A stretch of 49,161 nucleotides of DNA. Origin: Balneolia bacterium (lineage in GTDB: Bacteria; Bacteroidota; Rhodothermia; Balneolales; Cyclonatronaceae). Shown piece after piece: positions 37,502-49,161 of the stretch (position 1 is the first letter of the stretch; every line of letters starts with the position of its first letter). The stretch lies in assembly GCA_022565795.1 (NCBI GenBank), contig JAIUMA010000021.1, forward strand, positions 1-49,161. The letters run 5' to 3'. The position numbers and the translations under genes are program-made. Under the pieces are notes generated by a model. The model was given only the letters and a program-made list of their open reading frames with translations. It had not been told where the DNA came from and made no database searches.

Positions 37502-38851
37502 ATGAAAAATCATCTTAGCGTTATACCCACCTCTGTTAAAAGCGATTATATCGATCTTGTTATTACGCTTAACAAAGGCACGAGAATCTTGCAAGATTCA
37601 TATATCGATGTAGTAAGCAGTATATTTTCTAGCGTGCGGATTTTTGCATTCAATTCGTGTAATACATGTAGGGAATTGCCCCAAAACGTTAGCCAGTTTG
37701 ATGTTAGCCACAAAAAAGGCAAGGCCGAATTGTGGAATGAGGAGCTGAGCAGAAGCGGTAGCCCATGGGTATTGTTTATTGAGGAAGGTGAAGAAATCGA
37801 CTTCCTGAGTCTTCCCTCTGAAAGCCGGCTTACAGAGGCGGAGTGGGTCCCCGTATTGGTTACTCAGCCTACCGGTGAAGAGTCATTTAAGCAGTTCTGC
37901 TTAGCACGGTTGGTTTGCAGAACTCGTGAAAAGGTATTTAGCGGTAAAAATATTCCGGATGCCACAAGATTCATGCTTAAAAAAGGCATCACCTTTTCCG
38001 ATAATGCGGTTCGTATTTTTACAGAGCAAAGCCCTTTCGGTCAGATTGATCAGTTTGATGAGCTTTCTCTTCAATCGTTTTCTCCTGAAGTTTATTTCCA
38101 GTTGGGTTATAAATATTTCAACGAGAGAAAGTATGTGATGGCCGCCGCGCAGTTCAGACATCTTCAAAAAAGTGATGAGCTCATGGCCGGTCAAAAACTG
38201 GCAACCATTAACGCTCTGGCCAGCTGCCACGTCGAATTATTTAAATGGGATAAGGCGGTTGAGATGGCCCAAAAATCTATAGCTGCAGAACCAAAGCAGT
38301 TTATGCCATACCTCATACTCTACAAAATTTTTGAGCTAAACAAACAATGGAGCGCGTCTCTGGAGATACTTGAGAAATACAGAGAAGTCCTGGAATCCGG
38401 TTCAAAGGCGAGTATTGATAAATTCATAAGCAAACAGGAAACCCTTTTTAAGCTGGGACAGCTTGCTATTAAAACGGGACAAAGGGATAAAGCTCTCAAG
38501 TATTATGATCTCTACTTCAGAGAGAAAACGGGAGATGTTGAACCTTGGCTTACAGAACGTCTGTTGGTGCTATCGATCGAGCTCAAAGACTATGTGAAAG
38601 CTATTTTGTACTTTGAGGAGCTTTTTGGCGACGCTGCGACAAGCGCTTCAGAGACTGATGTTCAGGAAAAAATGCATGAGCATCTATCCATGTTTATGGT
38701 TAACGGCTGGTATGAGTACCCTCACGGTATCTATCAACGTTTATATAAGCAAGACTCCTCAAATAGAGAATACCAAAGAAAACTAATCGTAACGCTTTCC
38801 AAGACAAACCAGTTTGCCGAGGCAAAAAAGCTTATTGCGAATTACTTCTAA
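37502..38851 (+). CDS. TPR protein with glycosyltransferase-2-like N-terminus
   Basis: A 449-aa soluble protein after flgL. The first about 190 residues look like a worn GT2 domain: YIDLVITLNKGTRIL near the start and SPWVLFIEEGEEID at the place where GT2 enzymes have the WVLFLDADE acidic motif. The Asp residues that bind metal are replaced by Glu/Gly, so activity is doubtful. From about residue 195 it is built of TPR-like helical repeats (VYFQLGYKYFNERKYVMAAA; DKAVEMAQKSIAAEPK). Given the TPR-OGT fusion at 43863, it may take part in flagellin modification or filament assembly. Inference only. Its stop overlaps the convergent regulator stop. Confidence 0.6.
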   Translation: MKNHLSVIPTSVKSDYIDLVITLNKGTRILQDSYIDVVSSIFSSVRIFAFNSCNTCRELPQNVSQFDVSHKKGKAELWNEELSRSGSPWVLFIEEGEEIDFLSLPSESRLTEAEWVPVLVTQPTGEESFKQFCLARLVCRTREKVFSGKNIPDATRFMLKKGITFSDNAVRIFTEQSPFGQIDQFDELSLQSFSPEVYFQLGYKYFNERKYVMAAAQFRHLQKSDELMAGQKLATINALASCHVELFKWDKAVEMAQKSIAAEPKQFMPYLILYKIFELNKQWSASLEILEKYREVLESGSKASIDKFISKQETLFKLGQLAIKTGQRDKALKYYDLYFREKTGDVEPWLTERLLVLSIELKDYVKAILYFEELFGDAATSASETDVQEKMHEHLSMFMVNGWYEYPHGIYQRLYKQDSSNREYQRKLIVTLSKTNQFAEAKKLIANYF

Positions 38852-41172: not shown

Positions 41173-41550
41173 TTACTTCGTATAATACGAAATTTCTGGT
41201 TTCGCTAAAAAGTGATATCCATCTTCTGCTTTGCGCTGTTTTTGTGCAGAAAACAGTTGGTCTTTATGGTTCTCCAATACGTCGGATATGACGTCTTTAA
41301 TCTTCTGGTTGATAACGATGAACTCATCAAAAAAGTGATTGAACAACTCTTTTTCCTCGTCCGAGAACTCATGGACGGGCTCATTTTGCAAATCAATCCC
41401 AAATTCATCGATATGGTCCTGTCGCTTAGACATTGTCTCCTGTATGTATCCGAAAGAGGGAGTTTCTTTGTTCAACTCTGTGAGAATATTATCGCTAAGA
41501 CTATTAATTATAGAAATTTGTTTCATTAGCGTTTTCATAAACGTAAGCAT
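41173..41550 (-). CDS. FliT-like small helical chaperone (putative)
   Basis: A 125-aa, mostly helical, acidic protein immediately after fliD (TAATG, one-base overlap) and three bases before the FlgM-like gene. The pattern (LTELNKETPSFGYIQETMSKRQDHIDEF) recalls FliT/FlgN-type chaperones, in which a short stretch ends in RQxLID. In fliD-fliS-fliT operons the third gene is the FliD chaperone. Internal ATGs at 41538 and 41526 may be the true start. Function inferred mainly from position. Confidence 0.5.
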   Translation of the reverse strand: MLTFMKTLMKQISIINSLSDNILTELNKETPSFGYIQETMSKRQDHIDEFGIDLQNEPVHEFSDEEKELFNHFFDEFIVINQKIKDVISDVLENHKDQLFSAQKQRKAEDGYHFLAKPEISYYTK

Positions 41551-42956
41551 TAAAAGCCCATTAAATTCCTGAAGCTCATTATCTGAGCAAACTGCCGGTC
41601 TCCTTGATCAATAATGGCCTGGAGCTGGTTAAACCTGTTTCTTTGCTCCTCTTCATATCTTTCAAGAAAACGATCCTGAGCTGCAATTCTAGCATCAAGT
41701 CGGCTTATTCGCTGATCAAATCCACTTTCAATGGTTGCTATAATTCCTGTACCACGTTTGACAAAAGCTTCGGCTTCTGTTTTCATCTGAGATACAGTAG
41801 AATTTTCATCAGTAAATAAACGCGCCAGCTCATCCGGACGTTCGGTCAGCATTTCAGTAAGTAGTTCTTCATCATCAATAAACATCGTACCATCGTTTCT
41901 GAAGCTGATGCCAATATCAGAAAGACGCGCGGCTTCGCCCTCAGCTACTCCTTCCATAGGCAGGAGGCCGGTTTGGCGCAGTCCAATGGTGAGGTTTCGA
42001 ATAGATCTGTTGTCCTGAAGGGCACCCCTGCGATCATTTTCTGCATCCAGAAATGTGCGGTCACGAATGGTTTTGTTCATTTCATTGAACGCAGAGACAA
42101 ATTCAGTTACGTTTCTTCGTGCTTTATTTATATCCCGGTTTACGGTTAAAAGCTCCCGCTCACCGGTAGCCTGGTTCAATGTTATTGTAAGTCCTTCCAC
42201 AGCGTCGTCTACAACGTTAGTGCTGCGTTCGAAATTAACGCCATCAATGGAAAATAAGGCGTTAAGCTCTTCAGCTGGCGTAGCTCTTGTAGAAGTATTA
42301 GTGAGTTCAGCAAGAGCGCCGGTTGCATTTTCAAACTGTATGCGATTTTCAAATCCCGAATTCAGGCTCTGCATTGAAAACTGTACATTATCGCCACTTA
42401 CGTTGAAGCGATTGGCTCTGGCCTTATCTCCGAAAGCGTCCTCAATATTTTTTGAAAAAGCTTCAAGAATCTGGCTGTTTGTTTTTTGCTGAACTACACC
42501 CTGGTCATCCTCAAAGGTAGTTTCAACAGAAATGGTTTCGGTCTGCTCGCCTATGGTAATTTCAATCGACCCGCTGCCAAATGCCGACAGGTTTGTGTCG
42601 GTTCCATCCATGATTTCAGACAGTACAATGTCATTTGTCGCTAGTCTGTTAATTGTTATACCATACGTACCCGTTCTGTTTTGAGTACTGGTAGTCTCTA
42701 TATTTACAGTATCTTTATTCGAACTGGTTGCAGCCAGCGGATGAAACGGTCGGGTGGTATCGTTTTTAAGCTCATCGATTTTGCTTACAAATTTAGAAAT
42801 AGCCGAGCTTACGGCGCCAAGAGCCGTTTTCTTCTCGTTCTGAACACCCTTTTGTGCCTGAAGTTTAAGCTTAGTTTGACTTTCAATCTGTACGAGCTGT
42901 TTTACGAAATTCTCGTATGGATTGGTCTGCCTGAATATGTTTCCTATTGAGCTCAT
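41550..42956 (-). CDS. fliD: filament cap protein FliD (HAP2)
   Basis: A 468-aa protein with the FliD N-terminal region (NPYENFVKQLVQIESQTKLKL, AISKFVSKIDELKND), the FliD_C segment (ARRNVTEFVSAFNEMNKTIRD, LSDIGISFRNDGTMFIDDEE) and a C-terminal coiled coil (IAAQDRFLERYEEEQRNRF). It caps the growing filament and guides flagellin insertion. It lies downstream of fliS. Confidence 0.95.
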   Translation of the reverse strand: MSSIGNIFRQTNPYENFVKQLVQIESQTKLKLQAQKGVQNEKKTALGAVSSAISKFVSKIDELKNDTTRPFHPLAATSSNKDTVNIETTSTQNRTGTYGITINRLATNDIVLSEIMDGTDTNLSAFGSGSIEITIGEQTETISVETTFEDDQGVVQQKTNSQILEAFSKNIEDAFGDKARANRFNVSGDNVQFSMQSLNSGFENRIQFENATGALAELTNTSTRATPAEELNALFSIDGVNFERSTNVVDDAVEGLTITLNQATGERELLTVNRDINKARRNVTEFVSAFNEMNKTIRDRTFLDAENDRRGALQDNRSIRNLTIGLRQTGLLPMEGVAEGEAARLSDIGISFRNDGTMFIDDEELLTEMLTERPDELARLFTDENSTVSQMKTEAEAFVKRGTGIIATIESGFDQRISRLDARIAAQDRFLERYEEEQRNRFNQLQAIIDQGDRQFAQIMSFRNLMGF

Positions 42957-42993: not shown

Positions 42994-43308
42994 TTATTGA
43001 GCCTGAGCTGCAGGCTGGTTCGCAATTTCGTCCCAGGTGTCACGGAGGGGCTCAAGAAGCTCCCGAATCTCTTCAAATTCGCGCTTCCTTGCCAGCTCGC
43101 GGCAATACTGGTAAAGAGCAAAAAGCTGCTCCGCAGGCTCATGTTCGAAGTTGAGACCGTGCATCAGGGTGGTAAGTACCTCTTTTACCTTCGTTTGATC
43201 TCCCCTGTATGTAGCCTGAATGGCTAAGTCGTACAGTTTTACTACTAGCTGCAATGGCGATGCGTGTTTTACCGCCTGAGTTTGATATAGAAGTTCCGGA
43301 TTTTTCAT
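42994..43308 (-). CDS. fliS: flagellin export chaperone FliS
   Basis: A 104-aa helical protein, slightly short for FliS, with the conserved start YQTQAVKHASPLQLVVKLYDLAIQ, written here as YQTQAVKHASPLQ and LVVKLYDLAI. FliS prevents premature polymerisation of flagellin and brings it to FlhA. First gene of the minus-strand fliS-fliD operon behind sigma-28 and sigma-54 elements. Confidence 0.9.
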   Translation of the reverse strand: MKNPELLYQTQAVKHASPLQLVVKLYDLAIQATYRGDQTKVKEVLTTLMHGLNFEHEPAEQLFALYQYCRELARKREFEEIRELLEPLRDTWDEIANQPAAQAQ

Positions 43309-43376
43309 TACGCTAGAATAATGTGAATCGTGTATTTAATTCTTTTATCGACCGAATTCAGATTTTTATAAGTCAT

Positions 43377-43403
43377 TTATCGGCAGTTTTTTTGAATTGA
43401 TTA
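43377..43403 (-). promoter_or_regulatory. sigma-28 (FliA) promoter of fliS-fliD
   Basis: On the minus strand, TAATCAAT, 11 bases, GCCGATAA: a perfect -10 octamer and a -35 with the TAAT core. Predicted start near 43370, giving a leader of about 62 bases before fliS. Confidence 0.65.
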
Positions 43404-43456
43404 GTCTTTCTGGATTAGAAAGCTTTAATAAAAAGCATGTCTAATGCTATTAATTT

Positions 43457-43472
43457 TGCAATAATCATGCCT
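43457..43472 (-). promoter_or_regulatory. sigma-54 promoter of fliS-fliD
   Basis: On the minus strand, AGGCATGATTATTGCA: GG and GC are at the required spacing, with GGCA, the following G and the full TTGCA of the consensus. Two mismatches, at the outer T and at the C of the -24 half. It lies about 75 bases upstream of the sigma-28 element, so the operon may be switched on at two stages. Confidence 0.65.
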
Positions 43473-43862
43473 TATGGTTTTGGGCTCTTTCAGGCATGTT
43501 TGCAAAGAATAGAAAGGGATAGCGATCCAAGTCAAACGGATCTGCCACACTGCCATGCGCGTTTAGACAGGGTCTTTTAGGTAACCCAAGCGCTGTAGAG
43601 GCTTATGGCTGTTTGAAAAGATATCCGGCGGCCGATCGTGTATCCCTGCAGGGTAAAGCGGAAAATATTTCAGAAACAGGAAATCAATACCTTCGCAGCA
43701 GAAGATAGCAGCTCATGCTAGATAGCCTGTAATAATACATACGCGCCTAAAACAGCGGTTACTTTTTATTCAAACCAGATATAGCCTAACCGGCATCTAT
43801 TTTGATAATGTGGAGAAGACTATTGAACTCGCACAAATATGGATGCTTAAACAGATATCGTT

Positions 43863-46800
43863 TTGAATAACAGAATTCAGCAGGCTGAGCTTTTGCTCAA
43901 TACCAACCCGGTTAAACCCGATCAGCTAATTAAGCTGATGAAGCCACTTGTAAGTAAGAAAAATACACCGTGGAAGGCCTACCATATCAGCGGAATAGCT
44001 CATTTCCTGAAATCTGATTTTGAAAAAGCCGAAACCTTCTTTGCGCGGGCCCTGAAGGCAGGAGCGAACAGTCCGGAAGTGTATTATTACGCTGGTAAAT
44101 GCAGGTATCTGTGCGGCGACCATGAATCAGCGGTTATACATATAAAGAAAGCGATAGAGCTGAAGAACGACTACTACTCCGCCTGGATGGCGCTTGGTGA
44201 TGCATACAGAGAGACCGGGCAGCTGAACGAAGCGCTACAAAGCTACGGGCAGGGCAATCGTATAAACCCAGCTAAAGCAGAAGTGGCGCTCAAAATAGGC
44301 CGTGTTTATAAGGATCAGGCGTTTTCAGATAAAGCACTAGAGATGTTTGGAATAGTGCTGAAAATGGAGCCGGAGAATACCGCAGCGCTCAACGAAAAAG
44401 CGGTGATACTGCAGAATAAGCAGGAGTTTAATACTGCTTTGGAGACCATTCAGGCAGCAATAGATATAAATCCTGCCGACATCACTCTTCTTGCCACAAA
44501 AGCAGAAATACTTAAAGAGACCGGCGATTTCCTAGGCGCGCTACAGATTTATGAAGAAATGCTGGCAAAAAATCCGGGTAACGGAGGCGTAAGAATTAAT
44601 TACGCAAACGTGCTTCAGGATCTTGGACGCTTTGACGAAGCCGAGCAAAACTTTCTGAGAGCGAATAAGGATGTGCCTTCATTCATGGAGTCATACTCAA
44701 ACTATCTGTTCGTACAGCACTATAATCCGAATAAAACGAGAGATGAAATCCTGGAGACTATCCGGAAGTGGGATAGCATTTATGCTCCTGAAAATCCCGA
44801 AAGGGCCGTGCCTGAAAATAAGGACAGATCACGCCGTCTGCGGATTGGCTTACTTTCGGGAGGTTTCAGAATTCATCCGGTAGGCTGGATGATTCTTGCC
44901 GGTCTCGAAAACCTAAATAGCGATGAGTTTGAGCTTTATTTCTACTCAAACCATACGAAGGTCGACCAGATAACCCAAAGTTTGCACAAAACGGCCAGAG
45001 AATGGCGGATGATTAAAGGGTTCAGCAATCAAAGGGCGAATGAGATGATTCGGCAAGATCAAATTGATATTCTGGTTGAAATGTCTGGCCACGCAGGTGA
45101 TAGCCGGCTACGTGCTGTTGCTATGGAGCCGGCGCCTGTAATAGTGAAATGGGTTGGAGGCCTGTTTAATACCACCGGTCTTAAGGCCATAGATTACTTG
45201 TTGACAGACCATATTGAAACGCCTGAGGGTTCCGATGAGTACTATGTGGAAAAGCTTGTACGCATGCCGGATGACTATATCTGTTTTAGCCCCATCCCAT
45301 ATGCACCCGAGGTTAAAACAAGCCCGGTTACGGAAAATGGCTATATAACCTTTGGCTGTTTTAACAACCCGATTAAGGTAAATCCGGATATTCTGGAAAA
45401 ATGGGCGAAAATACTGACGCAGGTACCTGATAGCAGGCTGTTTTTAAAGAGCCGGCAATATGGCAACGAGTACTATACCAACCGCATTGAGCAGCTTATG
45501 GAAGGTTTTGGCGTCGGTAACGAAAGGCTGATATTTGAGGGTGGCTCGACCCATGATGTGCTGCTTGATGCGTACAACCGGGTTGATATCGCCTTAGATC
45601 CCTGGCCTTATTCCGGCGGACTCACCACCTGTGAAGCCCTGTGGATGGGCGTGCCTGTAATTACCTACCCGGGCCCCACTTTTGCGGGGCGCCATGCGGC
45701 AACGCACGTGCATAACGCCGGCTTTCCGGAATGGATTGCAGGAAGCTGGGAAGAGTACACCGATAAAGCTGTAGCAATGGCTGCTGATCCGGAAAGGCTT
45801 GCGGCATTAAGAGCCCGCTTACGGGATACGGTAGCCAGCTCTCCGCTCTGCGACGGAAAACGGTTCGGCAAGGCCTTAAGCAAGGCGTTTCGGGAGATGT
45901 GGATTGCTTATGCAGAAGGCCGTTTGAAAGAGAGTGCCATTAATGTTGAAATATCGGAGTCTGACCTGACAGATAGCAATTTAGGGGAAAAGAAAGTGAA
46001 TGTGCTGGAAAGCGTTGAAGATGAAGTATTTGCGGACTCTGAAAAAGTACTAATCGGTAAAGAAGCAAAGCAGTTGGAAGAGAGAGAAATGCAGGAATCT
46101 GTCTCAAGTAGCGTTAGTATCACAACTGGACTTAAGAAAAAATCTCAGGATAATCCCATTGAACTAATCTCTGATAAGCAGTATGGTTTACATGAGGTAG
46201 CTGAAAAAAGGTCTGCTAAAGGCAGGGAGAATCTTGCAAAAGCCAACCAAGGTCAACAGATTGAAAAAAATGCAAGGTATCCGTGGGTGAGAGGCGGGAA
46301 AGATAATTTACTGGTGCATGGAACGTACGGCGTTAAGTACAGTGTGCCAGAGTCGCTTGATGTAATATCAACCTATGTCTTTCTCGAGCAGGGAAAGTGG
46401 TACGATGCTGAGTTGAAGTTCTTGTATGAGTATCTCCGACCCGGAATGAAAGTAGTGGATGCGGGTGCGGGATTTGGCGCTTATGCGCTTACTGCTGCAT
46501 TGAAGGTGGGGGCAAAGGGTATTGTTTATGCCTTTGAGCCAGTCGAAAACATGCGAAAACACCTGGATATCAGTAAGGTAGAAAACGCTTTAACCAATAT
46601 CGAAGTCTCCGGCAGGGCATTAGGTGCTAAATCCGGGGAAATGGGATTGAGCAAGAATGCGACGCCTGAGTTAACTGTACTTGAGCAAGGGGGAGTGGGG
46701 GTGCAGGTGGTCACTTTGGATAAGTGGTGGGAGTTCGAAGGAAACCCGCAGGTTGATGTACTTAAAATTGATGTCAACGGTCGAGAATTTGATGTTCTCA

Positions 46801-48395
46801 AAGGTGCAGATAAAATGTTGTCTGAAACTTCAGCAGTTGTAGTGCTGGCTGTTACTGAGTCAGGAACAACACTGCAAAGTCAGGTGGAGTATTTGCAATC
46901 TAAAGACTTTGTCTTTTATGATTTTATTGGAGGTGTGAGTCTTTTAAGCCCCATTCAAGATTGGAACCAACGGGATTCATATACCCAAAATATAGTTGCA
47001 GTAAAAAAAGATATGGTCTCTGAATTATTTCAGACTGGATGGATACATGATGAACATGTCGAGATAGTCGAACCTGAAGAAGAGTATTGGAGAAAGAGTT
47101 TAAGGGCATTGCCATGGACGGACTCGCTATTTGCAGAATGGGAGAAAAACGCTTTAAAACCCGAACATAAAGACTACTACCGGGCTTTAGATTATATTAG
47201 TGCTGCAATAGAGCATGGAAATACAGATTCTGAATCAATACAACAAATAAAGTACAGATCGGTAAAAGCAAAGCTATTACTTGTAGCCGCTCAAGAATTG
47301 ATAACTAAGTATAATAAAGATGAAGGTGGTGTCTCAGTTGCATTTACTTTAATCCGTGTACTTGAGACTCTTGGAAGGCGTAAGCAAGCTGTTGATATAA
47401 TGAAAAAGCTGATTGTTGATACAAAAATGGGCCAGGAGAATCTATTTGCCCCCCTTCCTTTTTTTCTGCCAAAATCTGCTATGGACAATGCTCGGGTCCG
47501 AACAGAATTTCAAAAATGGTTGATGGTACGCTCAATTGAATCTTGGTTGCAATTGAATTATTTAACTACCTACCAATGTAGCTTTTCAGATAAACAACTA
47601 CTTGAGGTGTTACATGGGAATATCGAAACTATATCAAAAAGAAAAGAAGTTGGAGCCGCTTCACTTTCAATACCAGCCAACGGGAACGTATCACTAAGTG
47701 CTTTGAATTTACCGTCACAAGTAGTTAAAGTGAAAGTGCTAGACTATGAAATACTCATCCCCAAAAACGAAATATTCAGATTGAAGAATATTTTTGTAGA
47801 CAATGAATACAGTCTTCCTGAGGGGCATAGGATAGATAGAGATTCAGTAATTTTGGATGTAGGTGGAAACATTGGCGCATTCGCTTTATATGCCCAAAAA
47901 TGGAGTCCAAATGCAAAAATTTACAGCTTTGAACCAAATCCGCAGGTTTTCCCTTTGCTTCAGTCGAATACTAAAGGGCATAAAAATATTTCAGTACTCA
48001 ACTATGGCCTCGGAAGCAGCGATAAAGTTGTAGAGCTTTACCAAAATCCATTTAATACCGGTGCAACAAGCACCACACATAAAATTACAGGCTCGAATGT
48101 AGTAAATGTCCAGATTAAGAATGCATTAAGCCAAATCATTGAATTAGGAGTCGAGAAGATTGCTGTTCTCAAAATTGATACAGAAGGGGCTGAGGTTGAA
48201 ATCTTGGAGAGCTTAGAGCCTGTTTTGGATAAAGTCGAAATAATTATGCTTGAATACCATTCAAAAATTGACAGGGCAAATATCCTTTCGATTTTAAGTA
48301 GTTTCAAAATTTATGCTTCTGAGAAGAACTTAACCTCTGAAGTAGGAACACTTAAGTTTATCAACAATAGCTTCACCCTTGCTATCGAAAGCTAG
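43863..48395 (+). CDS. TPR-GT41 (O-GlcNAc transferase-like)-FkbM-FkbM fusion, candidate flagellin glycosylation/methylation enzyme
   Basis: A 1510-aa multidomain protein starting at TTG (in-frame stop 43848-43850; no ATG until residue 26). Residues about 1-300 are TPR repeats. About 324-690 form an OGT/SPINDLY-type GT41 domain: FRIHPVG with His338, the UDP-binding Lys529 in LFLK, and the signature LDPWPYSGGLTTCEALWMGV from residue 578. After a charged linker comes one FkbM methyltransferase domain (SAM loop VVDAGAGFG, 864-872; FEP; LKIDVNGRE, where the usual EG is NG), a helical region (about 1060-1260) and a second, more canonical FkbM domain (ILDVGGNIG, 1330-1338; FEP; LKIDTEGAE). It directly precedes flagellin. 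Flagellin modification by a GlcNAc-type sugar plus methylation is inference. Confidence 0.85.
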   Translation: MNNRIQQAELLLNTNPVKPDQLIKLMKPLVSKKNTPWKAYHISGIAHFLKSDFEKAETFFARALKAGANSPEVYYYAGKCRYLCGDHESAVIHIKKAIELKNDYYSAWMALGDAYRETGQLNEALQSYGQGNRINPAKAEVALKIGRVYKDQAFSDKALEMFGIVLKMEPENTAALNEKAVILQNKQEFNTALETIQAAIDINPADITLLATKAEILKETGDFLGALQIYEEMLAKNPGNGGVRINYANVLQDLGRFDEAEQNFLRANKDVPSFMESYSNYLFVQHYNPNKTRDEILETIRKWDSIYAPENPERAVPENKDRSRRLRIGLLSGGFRIHPVGWMILAGLENLNSDEFELYFYSNHTKVDQITQSLHKTAREWRMIKGFSNQRANEMIRQDQIDILVEMSGHAGDSRLRAVAMEPAPVIVKWVGGLFNTTGLKAIDYLLTDHIETPEGSDEYYVEKLVRMPDDYICFSPIPYAPEVKTSPVTENGYITFGCFNNPIKVNPDILEKWAKILTQVPDSRLFLKSRQYGNEYYTNRIEQLMEGFGVGNERLIFEGGSTHDVLLDAYNRVDIALDPWPYSGGLTTCEALWMGVPVITYPGPTFAGRHAATHVHNAGFPEWIAGSWEEYTDKAVAMAADPERLAALRARLRDTVASSPLCDGKRFGKALSKAFREMWIAYAEGRLKESAINVEISESDLTDSNLGEKKVNVLESVEDEVFADSEKVLIGKEAKQLEEREMQESVSSSVSITTGLKKKSQDNPIELISDKQYGLHEVAEKRSAKGRENLAKANQGQQIEKNARYPWVRGGKDNLLVHGTYGVKYSVPESLDVISTYVFLEQGKWYDAELKFLYEYLRPGMKVVDAGAGFGAYALTAALKVGAKGIVYAFEPVENMRKHLDISKVENALTNIEVSGRALGAKSGEMGLSKNATPELTVLEQGGVGVQVVTLDKWWEFEGNPQVDVLKIDVNGREFDVLKGADKMLSETSAVVVLAVTESGTTLQSQVEYLQSKDFVFYDFIGGVSLLSPIQDWNQRDSYTQNIVAVKKDMVSELFQTGWIHDEHVEIVEPEEEYWRKSLRALPWTDSLFAEWEKNALKPEHKDYYRALDYISAAIEHGNTDSESIQQIKYRSVKAKLLLVAAQELITKYNKDEGGVSVAFTLIRVLETLGRRKQAVDIMKKLIVDTKMGQENLFAPLPFFLPKSAMDNARVRTEFQKWLMVRSIESWLQLNYLTTYQCSFSDKQLLEVLHGNIETISKRKEVGAASLSIPANGNVSLSALNLPSQVVKVKVLDYEILIPKNEIFRLKNIFVDNEYSLPEGHRIDRDSVILDVGGNIGAFALYAQKWSPNAKIYSFEPNPQVFPLLQSNTKGHKNISVLNYGLGSSDKVVELYQNPFNTGATSTTHKITGSNVVNVQIKNALSQIIELGVEKIAVLKIDTEGAEVEILESLEPVLDKVEIIMLEYHSKIDRANILSILSSFKIYASEKNLTSEVGTLKFINNSFTLAIES

Positions 48396-49132
48396 AAGTT
48401 TGGGTCAACCAGAATAGAAAATCGATTGGCGCCGTATTGACAGTAAGGATTAGCCAAACAGAGACCCTGGCAGTGAAATAGTAGCTAAGAACATCTGGTC
48501 ACTATAGTTCTTTGGACTTGAATGTATAGGCGCCGAATTAGCTAAACTATTGTTCAAATTGGGATGTTTTACCTTTAACATGAGTAGTCATTTCAGTTTC
48601 ACTGCACGTGAATATCCCGTAGTAAGATAGCTATTGGTATGTTAATTACATCCATTGCTGTCATTAGCTAATGGCTGATACGTTACGAAGGCTTAAAAGC
48701 TGCGATAATTAATTGTCTGTGAGCCTGCTCTTCTAATAAGTACAGGTAGAATTGATATGAAGGCAGATAAAGGTTTTGGTTTGTCATAAGGCTGGTGAGG
48801 CACCGCTATTCCATCAAGCAAGTAGAGATAAATCTGAAGACTAGTAATCACAAAAGATACTGTTGAAACTCAGTTTCTTCGCTCCCGGCTTTCCATCAAA
48901 CGGATAAAATGCTGTTTTTTGGTCCAAAAATTATCAATGTGAGCAGACTATCCTAAAATATAGAAATATCGTAAAGTTAAGCAAAAACAATGCTTTTATG
49001 CCTTTTTTTTGGTTGAGGGCGAAAAAAATAAAAAAAATATTTATCCCAAATTTAAGAACGCATATCCACGCACGATAACCACAGTAAGCAATCTGCCTAA
49101 TGAACATTAAACAAAAACAAAGGTGAAACATC
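48396..49132. other. 737-base region upstream of flagellin
   Basis: No convincing gene on either strand. AT-rich, with two GGCGCC-centred near repeats (about 48428 and 48528), an A/T homopolymer stretch (49000-49042) and the sigma-28-like element at 49053-49078. A weak hairpin with T run (about 48979-49010) could end an upstream transcript. Confidence 0.45.
49053..49078 (+). promoter_or_regulatory. possible sigma-28 promoter of flagellin
   Basis: TAAGAACG, 10 bases, CACGATAA. The -10 shares CGATAA and the -35 shares TAAG with the motA promoter, at the same spacing. Predicted start near 49085, about 48 bases before the ATG. Weaker match than the other three, but position and gene are right. 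Confidence 0.5.
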
Positions 49133-49161
49133 ATGGCAAGTTTTGGTGATCTCAACAGAGT
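49133..49161 (+). CDS. fliC: flagellin, 5' end only
   Basis: Only MASFGDLNRV is readable before the window ends. This matches the opening of the flagellin group that starts M-x-F-G-D-[IL]-N-R-[IV]. An AAAGGTG ribosome site lies 9 bases upstream, and a sigma-28-like promoter precedes it. Location beside the glycosyltransferase fusion and the fliS-fliD operon supports the call. Length and copy number of flagellins cannot be judged. Confidence 0.7.

Follow-up and report, generated by a model that had tools for sequence, protein, structure and literature searches.

Among strains, flagellin glycans vary rapidly, and links to motility, biofilm formation and immune recognition have been reported; the variation is generally ascribed to entire islands made up of separate genes. 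In FlmG of Caulobacter crescentus, a tetratricopeptide repeat (TPR) domain binds the flagellins, and the glycosyltransferase domain depends on that TPR for its function (PMC7591256). For the flagellin islands of Enterobacteriaceae, the accessible text of De Maayer and Cowan (2016, PMC4875605) describes GT41 proteins with methyltransferase domains. The present analysis concerns a 1510-residue protein of a Balneolia bacterium (family Cyclonatronaceae, assembly GCA_022565795.1), hereafter the giant protein, which joins a TPR solenoid, a GT41 domain, an FkbM methyltransferase-fold domain (FkbM-1), a helical module and a second FkbM domain (FkbM-2). Its gene lies at 43863-48395 on the plus strand of the window, a stretch of 49,161 nucleotides that is the whole of contig JAIUMA010000021.1. 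The giant protein, built from a constant core and an exchangeable tail, probably O-glycosylates flagellin in the cytoplasm and goes on to process the glycan.

The giant protein resembles FlmG in its N-terminal TPR and GT-B glycosyltransferase, which in FlmG act on flagellin (PMC7591256), and its gene is linked to flagellin and late flagellar genes as expected of an FlmG-like enzyme. In contrast, FlmG has 596 residues and no described methyltransferase domain, and it uses pseudaminic acid, whereas no NeuB was found in the genome of the giant protein. The closest solved sequence and fold to the GT41 domain is the Arabidopsis O-fucosyltransferase SPINDLY (SPY; 7y4i, 8dtf), which has no methyltransferase domains and uses GDP-fucose, probably unavailable to the giant protein (no gmd was found, as detailed below). 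Human O-GlcNAc transferase (OGT) and its Thermobaculum counterpart (TtOGT, 5djs) share the TPR-GT41 architecture and the catalytic lysine. An initial reading of the DNA by itself (the sequence-only reading) had set such a single chain apart from the separate flagellin glycosyltransferases and methyltransferases known in several bacteria, but the combination is not unique: according to the accessible text of PMC4875605, the enterobacterial island proteins are SPINDLY-type GT41s, and the majority also carry a methyltransferase domain on the same chain. Those proteins differ in belonging to another phylum and in being known by domain hits only (COG3914, cd02440); that text reports no constant core with exchanged tails for them, and, as far as they are described there, the giant protein is set apart by its pair of FkbM domains and its additional helical module. 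A search of open-access papers returned nothing on this architecture beyond the enterobacterial islands. As far as those papers show, the two-FkbM architecture, its order-wide conservation at the fliS locus, a conserved FkbM variant with a D-x-N-G motif and a helical module, and the exchange of tails at a fixed junction are new.

The open reading frame (ORF) is intact and begins with TTG, the frame being open for just four codons further upstream before a stop; the corresponding start codon is TTG or GTG in many orthologs. Profile searches of the 1510-residue protein matched all of the domains that the sequence-only reading had assigned to a single chain: many TPR models at residues ~20-270 and Glyco_transf_41 (PF13844) at 150.3 bits against a cut-off of 25, with Methyltransf_21/FkbM (PF05050; 107 bits, cut-off 22.7) and the NCBIfam model fkbM_fam (TIGR01444; 166 bits, cut-off 37.7) each matched twice. 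AlphaFold2, run with an alignment of relatives, gave confident models of both halves (mean predicted local distance difference test score, pLDDT, 88 each) in which the TPR solenoid runs into the GT-B fold, followed by FkbM-1, the helical module and FkbM-2. In Foldseek searches the first half matched SPY best (8dth, E 1e-47), then TtOGT (5djs) and animal OGT, and the second half matched class I methyltransferases, with the FkbM structure 2py6 among the best folds. Because ortholog L083 (loci of relatives carry L numbers and genomes G numbers), a full-length protein of 1528 residues encoded in a different genus of the family, can be aligned over its entire length at 64% identity, the giant ORF is not a product of assembly or frameshift fusion.

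All parts of the gene lie on the plus strand. The TPR solenoid (residues 1-287; 43863-44723), with about 8-9 helix pairs modelled at pLDDT mostly 85-97, is presumably the flagellin-binding arm. The GT41 catalytic domain, placed by PF13844, Foldseek and residue mapping, spans residues ~325-685 (44835-45917); a poorly conserved linker (residues ~690-815; 45930-46307) follows, with sister identity down to ~36% and pLDDT below 50 at residues 700-710. FkbM-1 occupies residues ~808-1050 (46284-47012), from the AlphaFold2 model, the fold match to 2py6 and a PF05050 match at 866-1001, and the helical module, defined by AlphaFold2 helices, residues ~1051-1255 (47013-47627). The helical module closes with the motif LLEVLHGNIE (residues 1246-1255; 47598-47627; family consensus LEGNPE), at which homology between sister proteins stops. 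Beyond it lies the variable tail, here FkbM-2 (residues ~1285-1510; 47715-48395; best TIGR01444 stretch 1329-1466), which has a SAM motif and the canonical D-T-E-G at 1439-1442 (48177-48188), as in the FkbM family at large. A PADLOC match to mad2 (residues 836-915, E 1e-7) spans just part of the methyltransferase fold, and an anti-phage reading was set aside.

The distribution of the core was surveyed in 117 related genomes, a TPR-GT41 match with E below 1e-100 being counted as the core and PF00669 (Flagellin_N), which also catches FlgL, serving as a proxy for flagellin. The core occurs in 35 of the genomes, all 35 with a Flagellin_N match; it is present in 35 of the 48 genomes with Flagellin_N and in none of the 69 others (Fisher p ~2e-19, a value that overstates independence because the genomes are related). 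A 36th carrier, G034, has a divergent homologue of 31% identity and no Flagellin_N; if it is counted, the figures become 1/69 and p 7e-18. With the 33 loci that were read in detail, this association rules out chance linkage. A divergent fliS lies within 1 kb in 30 of these loci; of the remaining three, all still at flagellar genes, one has an AMP-ligase inserted before fliS, one occupies a rearranged position in the same cluster of flagellar genes, and one, 163 bp ahead of flagellin, lies at the edge of its contig. The sequence-only reading had proposed a survey of this kind and had named homologues at non-flagellar loci as the contrary outcome; the survey bears out the linkage, and none of the 33 loci is non-flagellar. 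Among distant proteobacterial relatives, the distance from flagellin to the homologue downstream of it is within ~200 bp in L043, L044 and L047, and the proteins of L043, L045 and L047 carry their own long C-terminal extensions. Glycan-type neighbours in relatives (a DegT aminotransferase, a hexapeptide acyltransferase, AMP-ligases, an SDR and a sulfotransferase) stand mostly between the giant gene and flagellin, a gene set as expected of flagellin glycosylation islands.

Most tails in other members are glycosyltransferases or methyltransferases. By Pfam matches, some of them weak (kinase-like in L060 and L082, GT4-like in L065), the FkbM-2 tail of the window recurs in L083, L056 and L078, with L059 and L077 added by BLAST; other tails are GT56 (L039, L072), GT2 with a methyltransferase (L040, L058), GT2 with a GT1-like domain (L055, L076), GT1-like (L053, L064, L074), GT2 (L063), a methyltransferase with a kinase-like domain (L041) and kinase-like or APH (L060, L061, L073, L082), while L066-L068 and L070 have a short TPR-GT41-FkbM form of 974-975 residues. 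When tail labels, assigned by hand from the Pfam matches, are mapped onto a maximum-likelihood core tree, FkbM-2 tails are scattered, requiring at least 5 changes, and all classes together require at least 18. The cores of L059 and L057 are 84% identical and those of L039 and L040 80%, yet neither pair has detectable similarity in the tails, whereas the control pair L057 and L058 is 84% identical in the core and 85% in the tail. In L059/L057, L039/L040 and L053/L060 similarity ends at one LEGNPE-like motif closing the helical module; these alignments show the tail swapped wholesale at one fixed junction in the relatives. Stepwise fusion, which had been suspected from base composition, is thereby supported, and extended to tails that are unrelated between sisters. 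The compositional break itself is real, but it falls in the helical module and FkbM-2 (GC 0.38 and 0.37) and not at the start of FkbM-1 (0.47); in each of the five FkbM-2 orthologs examined, the final block of the gene has either the lowest GC or a value no more than 0.01 above it. L054, from another family-level group, joins the clade of the window with full support in the core tree, which suggests transfer between lineages. Beside the short form in L068 (7726-9417; similarly in L066, L067 and L070) is a separate TPR-GT56 protein, its TPR ~31% like that of the giant protein, as in a two-gene version of the same idea.

By alignment with SPY and its published structures (PMC9715652, PMC10027727), H338 (44874-44876), K505 (45375-45377), K529 (45447-45449), A570 and Y583 (45609-45611), the codons all on the plus strand, correspond to SPY H495, K665, K689, A731 and Y744, of which K665 is essential and K689 binds guanosine; SPY S496 and T747 are replaced by P339 and G586. 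H338 also corresponds to H558 of human OGT, and K505 to its K842 and, by offset, to the lysine mutated in TtOGT K341M (5djs). The sequence-only reading had singled out equivalents of His338 and Lys529; the histidine stands, H338 and K505 each being invariant in 32/32 aligned members, but the catalytic lysine is K505, and K529 is the counterpart of SPY K689. K529 and Y583 are each conserved in 31/32 members, and position 570 varies. The UDP-GlcNAc determinants of human OGT (L866, R904, C917) are absent, K529, A570 and Y583 standing in their place exactly as K689, A731 and Y744 do in SPINDLY. By the published rules, the site is SPY-like and not O-GlcNAc-like, and K529 and Y583 point away from UDP-GlcNAc, which is probably not used; as a statement about the donor, the earlier label of an O-GlcNAc-transferase-type domain is not supported. 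A prokaryotic intermediate GT41 group with mixed determinant patterns was described in the 2023 SPY paper.

In the proposed mechanism, the TPR solenoid would capture flagellin before export, as in FlmG, and the GT41 domain, whose SPINDLY-like active site is intact in the sequence, would put a first sugar, taken from a nucleotide-sugar that is probably not UDP-GlcNAc, on flagellin serine or threonine. FkbM-1 with the helical module, which most relatives have in their core, would either add a methyl group to that sugar or keep the tail in position, and the tail, here a canonical FkbM methyltransferase, would finish or cap the glycan on the same chain. Tail replacement, traceable in the alignments, would then yield a different flagellar glycan while flagellin capture stayed the same. 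A more specific version, to which we assign slightly less than an even chance, is that the glycan of this order has diversified by C-terminal exchange at the fixed LEGNPE junction, with a core that captures and primes flagellin, a tail that sets the second sugar, methyl or other group, and FkbM-1 as a core-specific variant that has altered chemistry or serves as a tail-docking platform.

Several observations weigh against the giant protein being a flagellin glycosyltransferase that also processes the glycan. Thirteen of the 48 relatives with Flagellin_N lack the core; therefore, flagella of this order do not require it. The available flank reaches a flagellin gene in 19 of the 33 loci and several do not, many relatives being draft or metagenome assemblies whose flanks often stop before flagellin. 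There are no sugar-synthesis genes beside the giant gene in the window. In the genome, rated 100% complete, the best match to gmd (GDP-mannose 4,6-dehydratase) scored 80 bits against a cut-off of 415, and, with NeuB also lacking, the usual route is therefore missing both for the SPY donor GDP-fucose and for the FlmG donor pseudaminic acid; for this genome, GDP-fucose and nonulosonic acids are improbable as donors, and UDP-GlcNAc is disfavoured by the active-site residues. The genome contains rmlA and a gene resembling mannose-1-phosphate guanylyltransferase, and therefore dTDP- or GDP-linked hexoses remain as candidate donors. FkbM-1 carries D-V-N-G at residues 970-973 (46770-46781) where the family has D-x-E-G. 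The open-access literature searched holds no biochemistry or mass spectrometry on any member.

The motif in FkbM-1 had been read as a possible mark of an altered or structural domain. It is indeed there, and FkbM-1 nevertheless matches its profile and keeps the SAM motif VVDAGAGFG; because the N is invariant in ~23 orthologs that all have an intact SAM motif, D-x-N-G is a conserved subfamily variant and not decay, which was rejected for most members and holds for the divergent L054, L072 and L075, the only three with a degraded FkbM-1. FkbM-1 may still be non-catalytic. Flagellin may be modified by GT41 and FkbM-2 alone, with FkbM-1 and the helical module as a scaffold that positions the tail; the D-x-N-G of all close orthologs, the degradation in the three divergent members, the position of the module always before the swap junction and its absence from the short members (974 residues) are all in keeping with this, but pure scaffolds tend to lose a SAM-binding motif such as the one kept in the ~23 orthologs, and we consider a scaffold plausible, though rather less than an even bet. 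If a different late flagellar protein (the FliD cap or a hook-associated protein, for example) were modified in place of flagellin, one would expect what is seen of fliS-fliD, more constant neighbours than flagellin in the available flanks (30/33 vs 19/33); flagellins, however, come after the giant gene or its glycan genes wherever flanks are long enough, the proteobacterial relatives adjoin flagellin, and the characterised TPR-glycosyltransferase FlmG acts on flagellin (PMC7591256), so that such a target is unlikely. An O-GlcNAc transferase with broad cytoplasmic substrates, a mere hitchhiker at the flagellar locus, would have just this OGT-like TPR-GT41 architecture, but with a core confined to Flagellin_N-bearing relatives and donor residues K529 and Y583 that are not OGT-like, it is very improbable.

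The helical module had no Pfam match and nothing specific in profile and fold searches of the PDB, in which the second half of the protein returned only FkbM 2py6 and generic methyltransferases. In a sample of 394 genomes from across the phylum, full FkbM-1 with the helical module occurs only in the order of the window. Close downstream of the giant gene in L055 (2807-5551) and L071 (4276-7020) is a 914-residue ORF with FkbM-1/helical module and a GT1-like domain and no TPR-GT41; therefore, FkbM-1 with its helical module also exists detached.

If flagellin is the substrate, tail exchange would alter the sugar coat of the flagellum between close relatives, and a constant capturing and priming core with a tail that changes at one point would be a clean model of how a lineage changes its flagellar coat. 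The relatives provide naturally occurring series of tail modules attached to one shared core, and this bacterial clade of SPINDLY-like enzymes, which probably act on a protein, would be useful for donor rules in GT41.

The placement of the giant gene opposite fliS and fliD was confirmed: fliS (42994-43308, minus strand), its neighbour in 30/33 loci, and fliD (41550-42956, minus strand), in conserved synteny, are divergent and upstream. It had also been placed directly before flagellin, which is correct insofar as flagellin is the next gene, across a long spacer of ~740 bp; the contig end cuts the flagellin gene after its first 29 nucleotides (49133-49161, plus strand; MASFGDLNR). The second flagellin of the genome, 507 residues long and starting MSAFGDLNR, is near another contig end. 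The non-coding flanks of the giant gene are 43309-43862 (554 bp) and 48396-49132 (737 bp), and gaps of 300-700 bp to fliS also occur in relatives. The remainder of the window reads mostly as flagellar genes, named from their translations, and the giant gene is the only GT41 gene of its genome.

Two flagellate relatives without the giant gene have other large multi-domain proteins beside flagellin: FkbM-GT2 and GT2-TPR proteins in L085 (4328-9426) and a CDP-glycerol transferase-like-GT2-GT2-TPR protein in L086 (288-4304). In the window, a 449-residue TPR protein with no other domain found (37502-38851, plus strand) lies downstream of flgL; it is kept in 44 of the 117 relatives, all within the 48 with Flagellin_N and some without the giant gene, and is an uncharacterised, nearly universal flagellar-locus protein of the order. 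Flagellin_N matches are absent from all five further genomes of the genus of the window (G001-G005, compared with G000); therefore, the flagellar cluster has been patchily kept or acquired within the genus.

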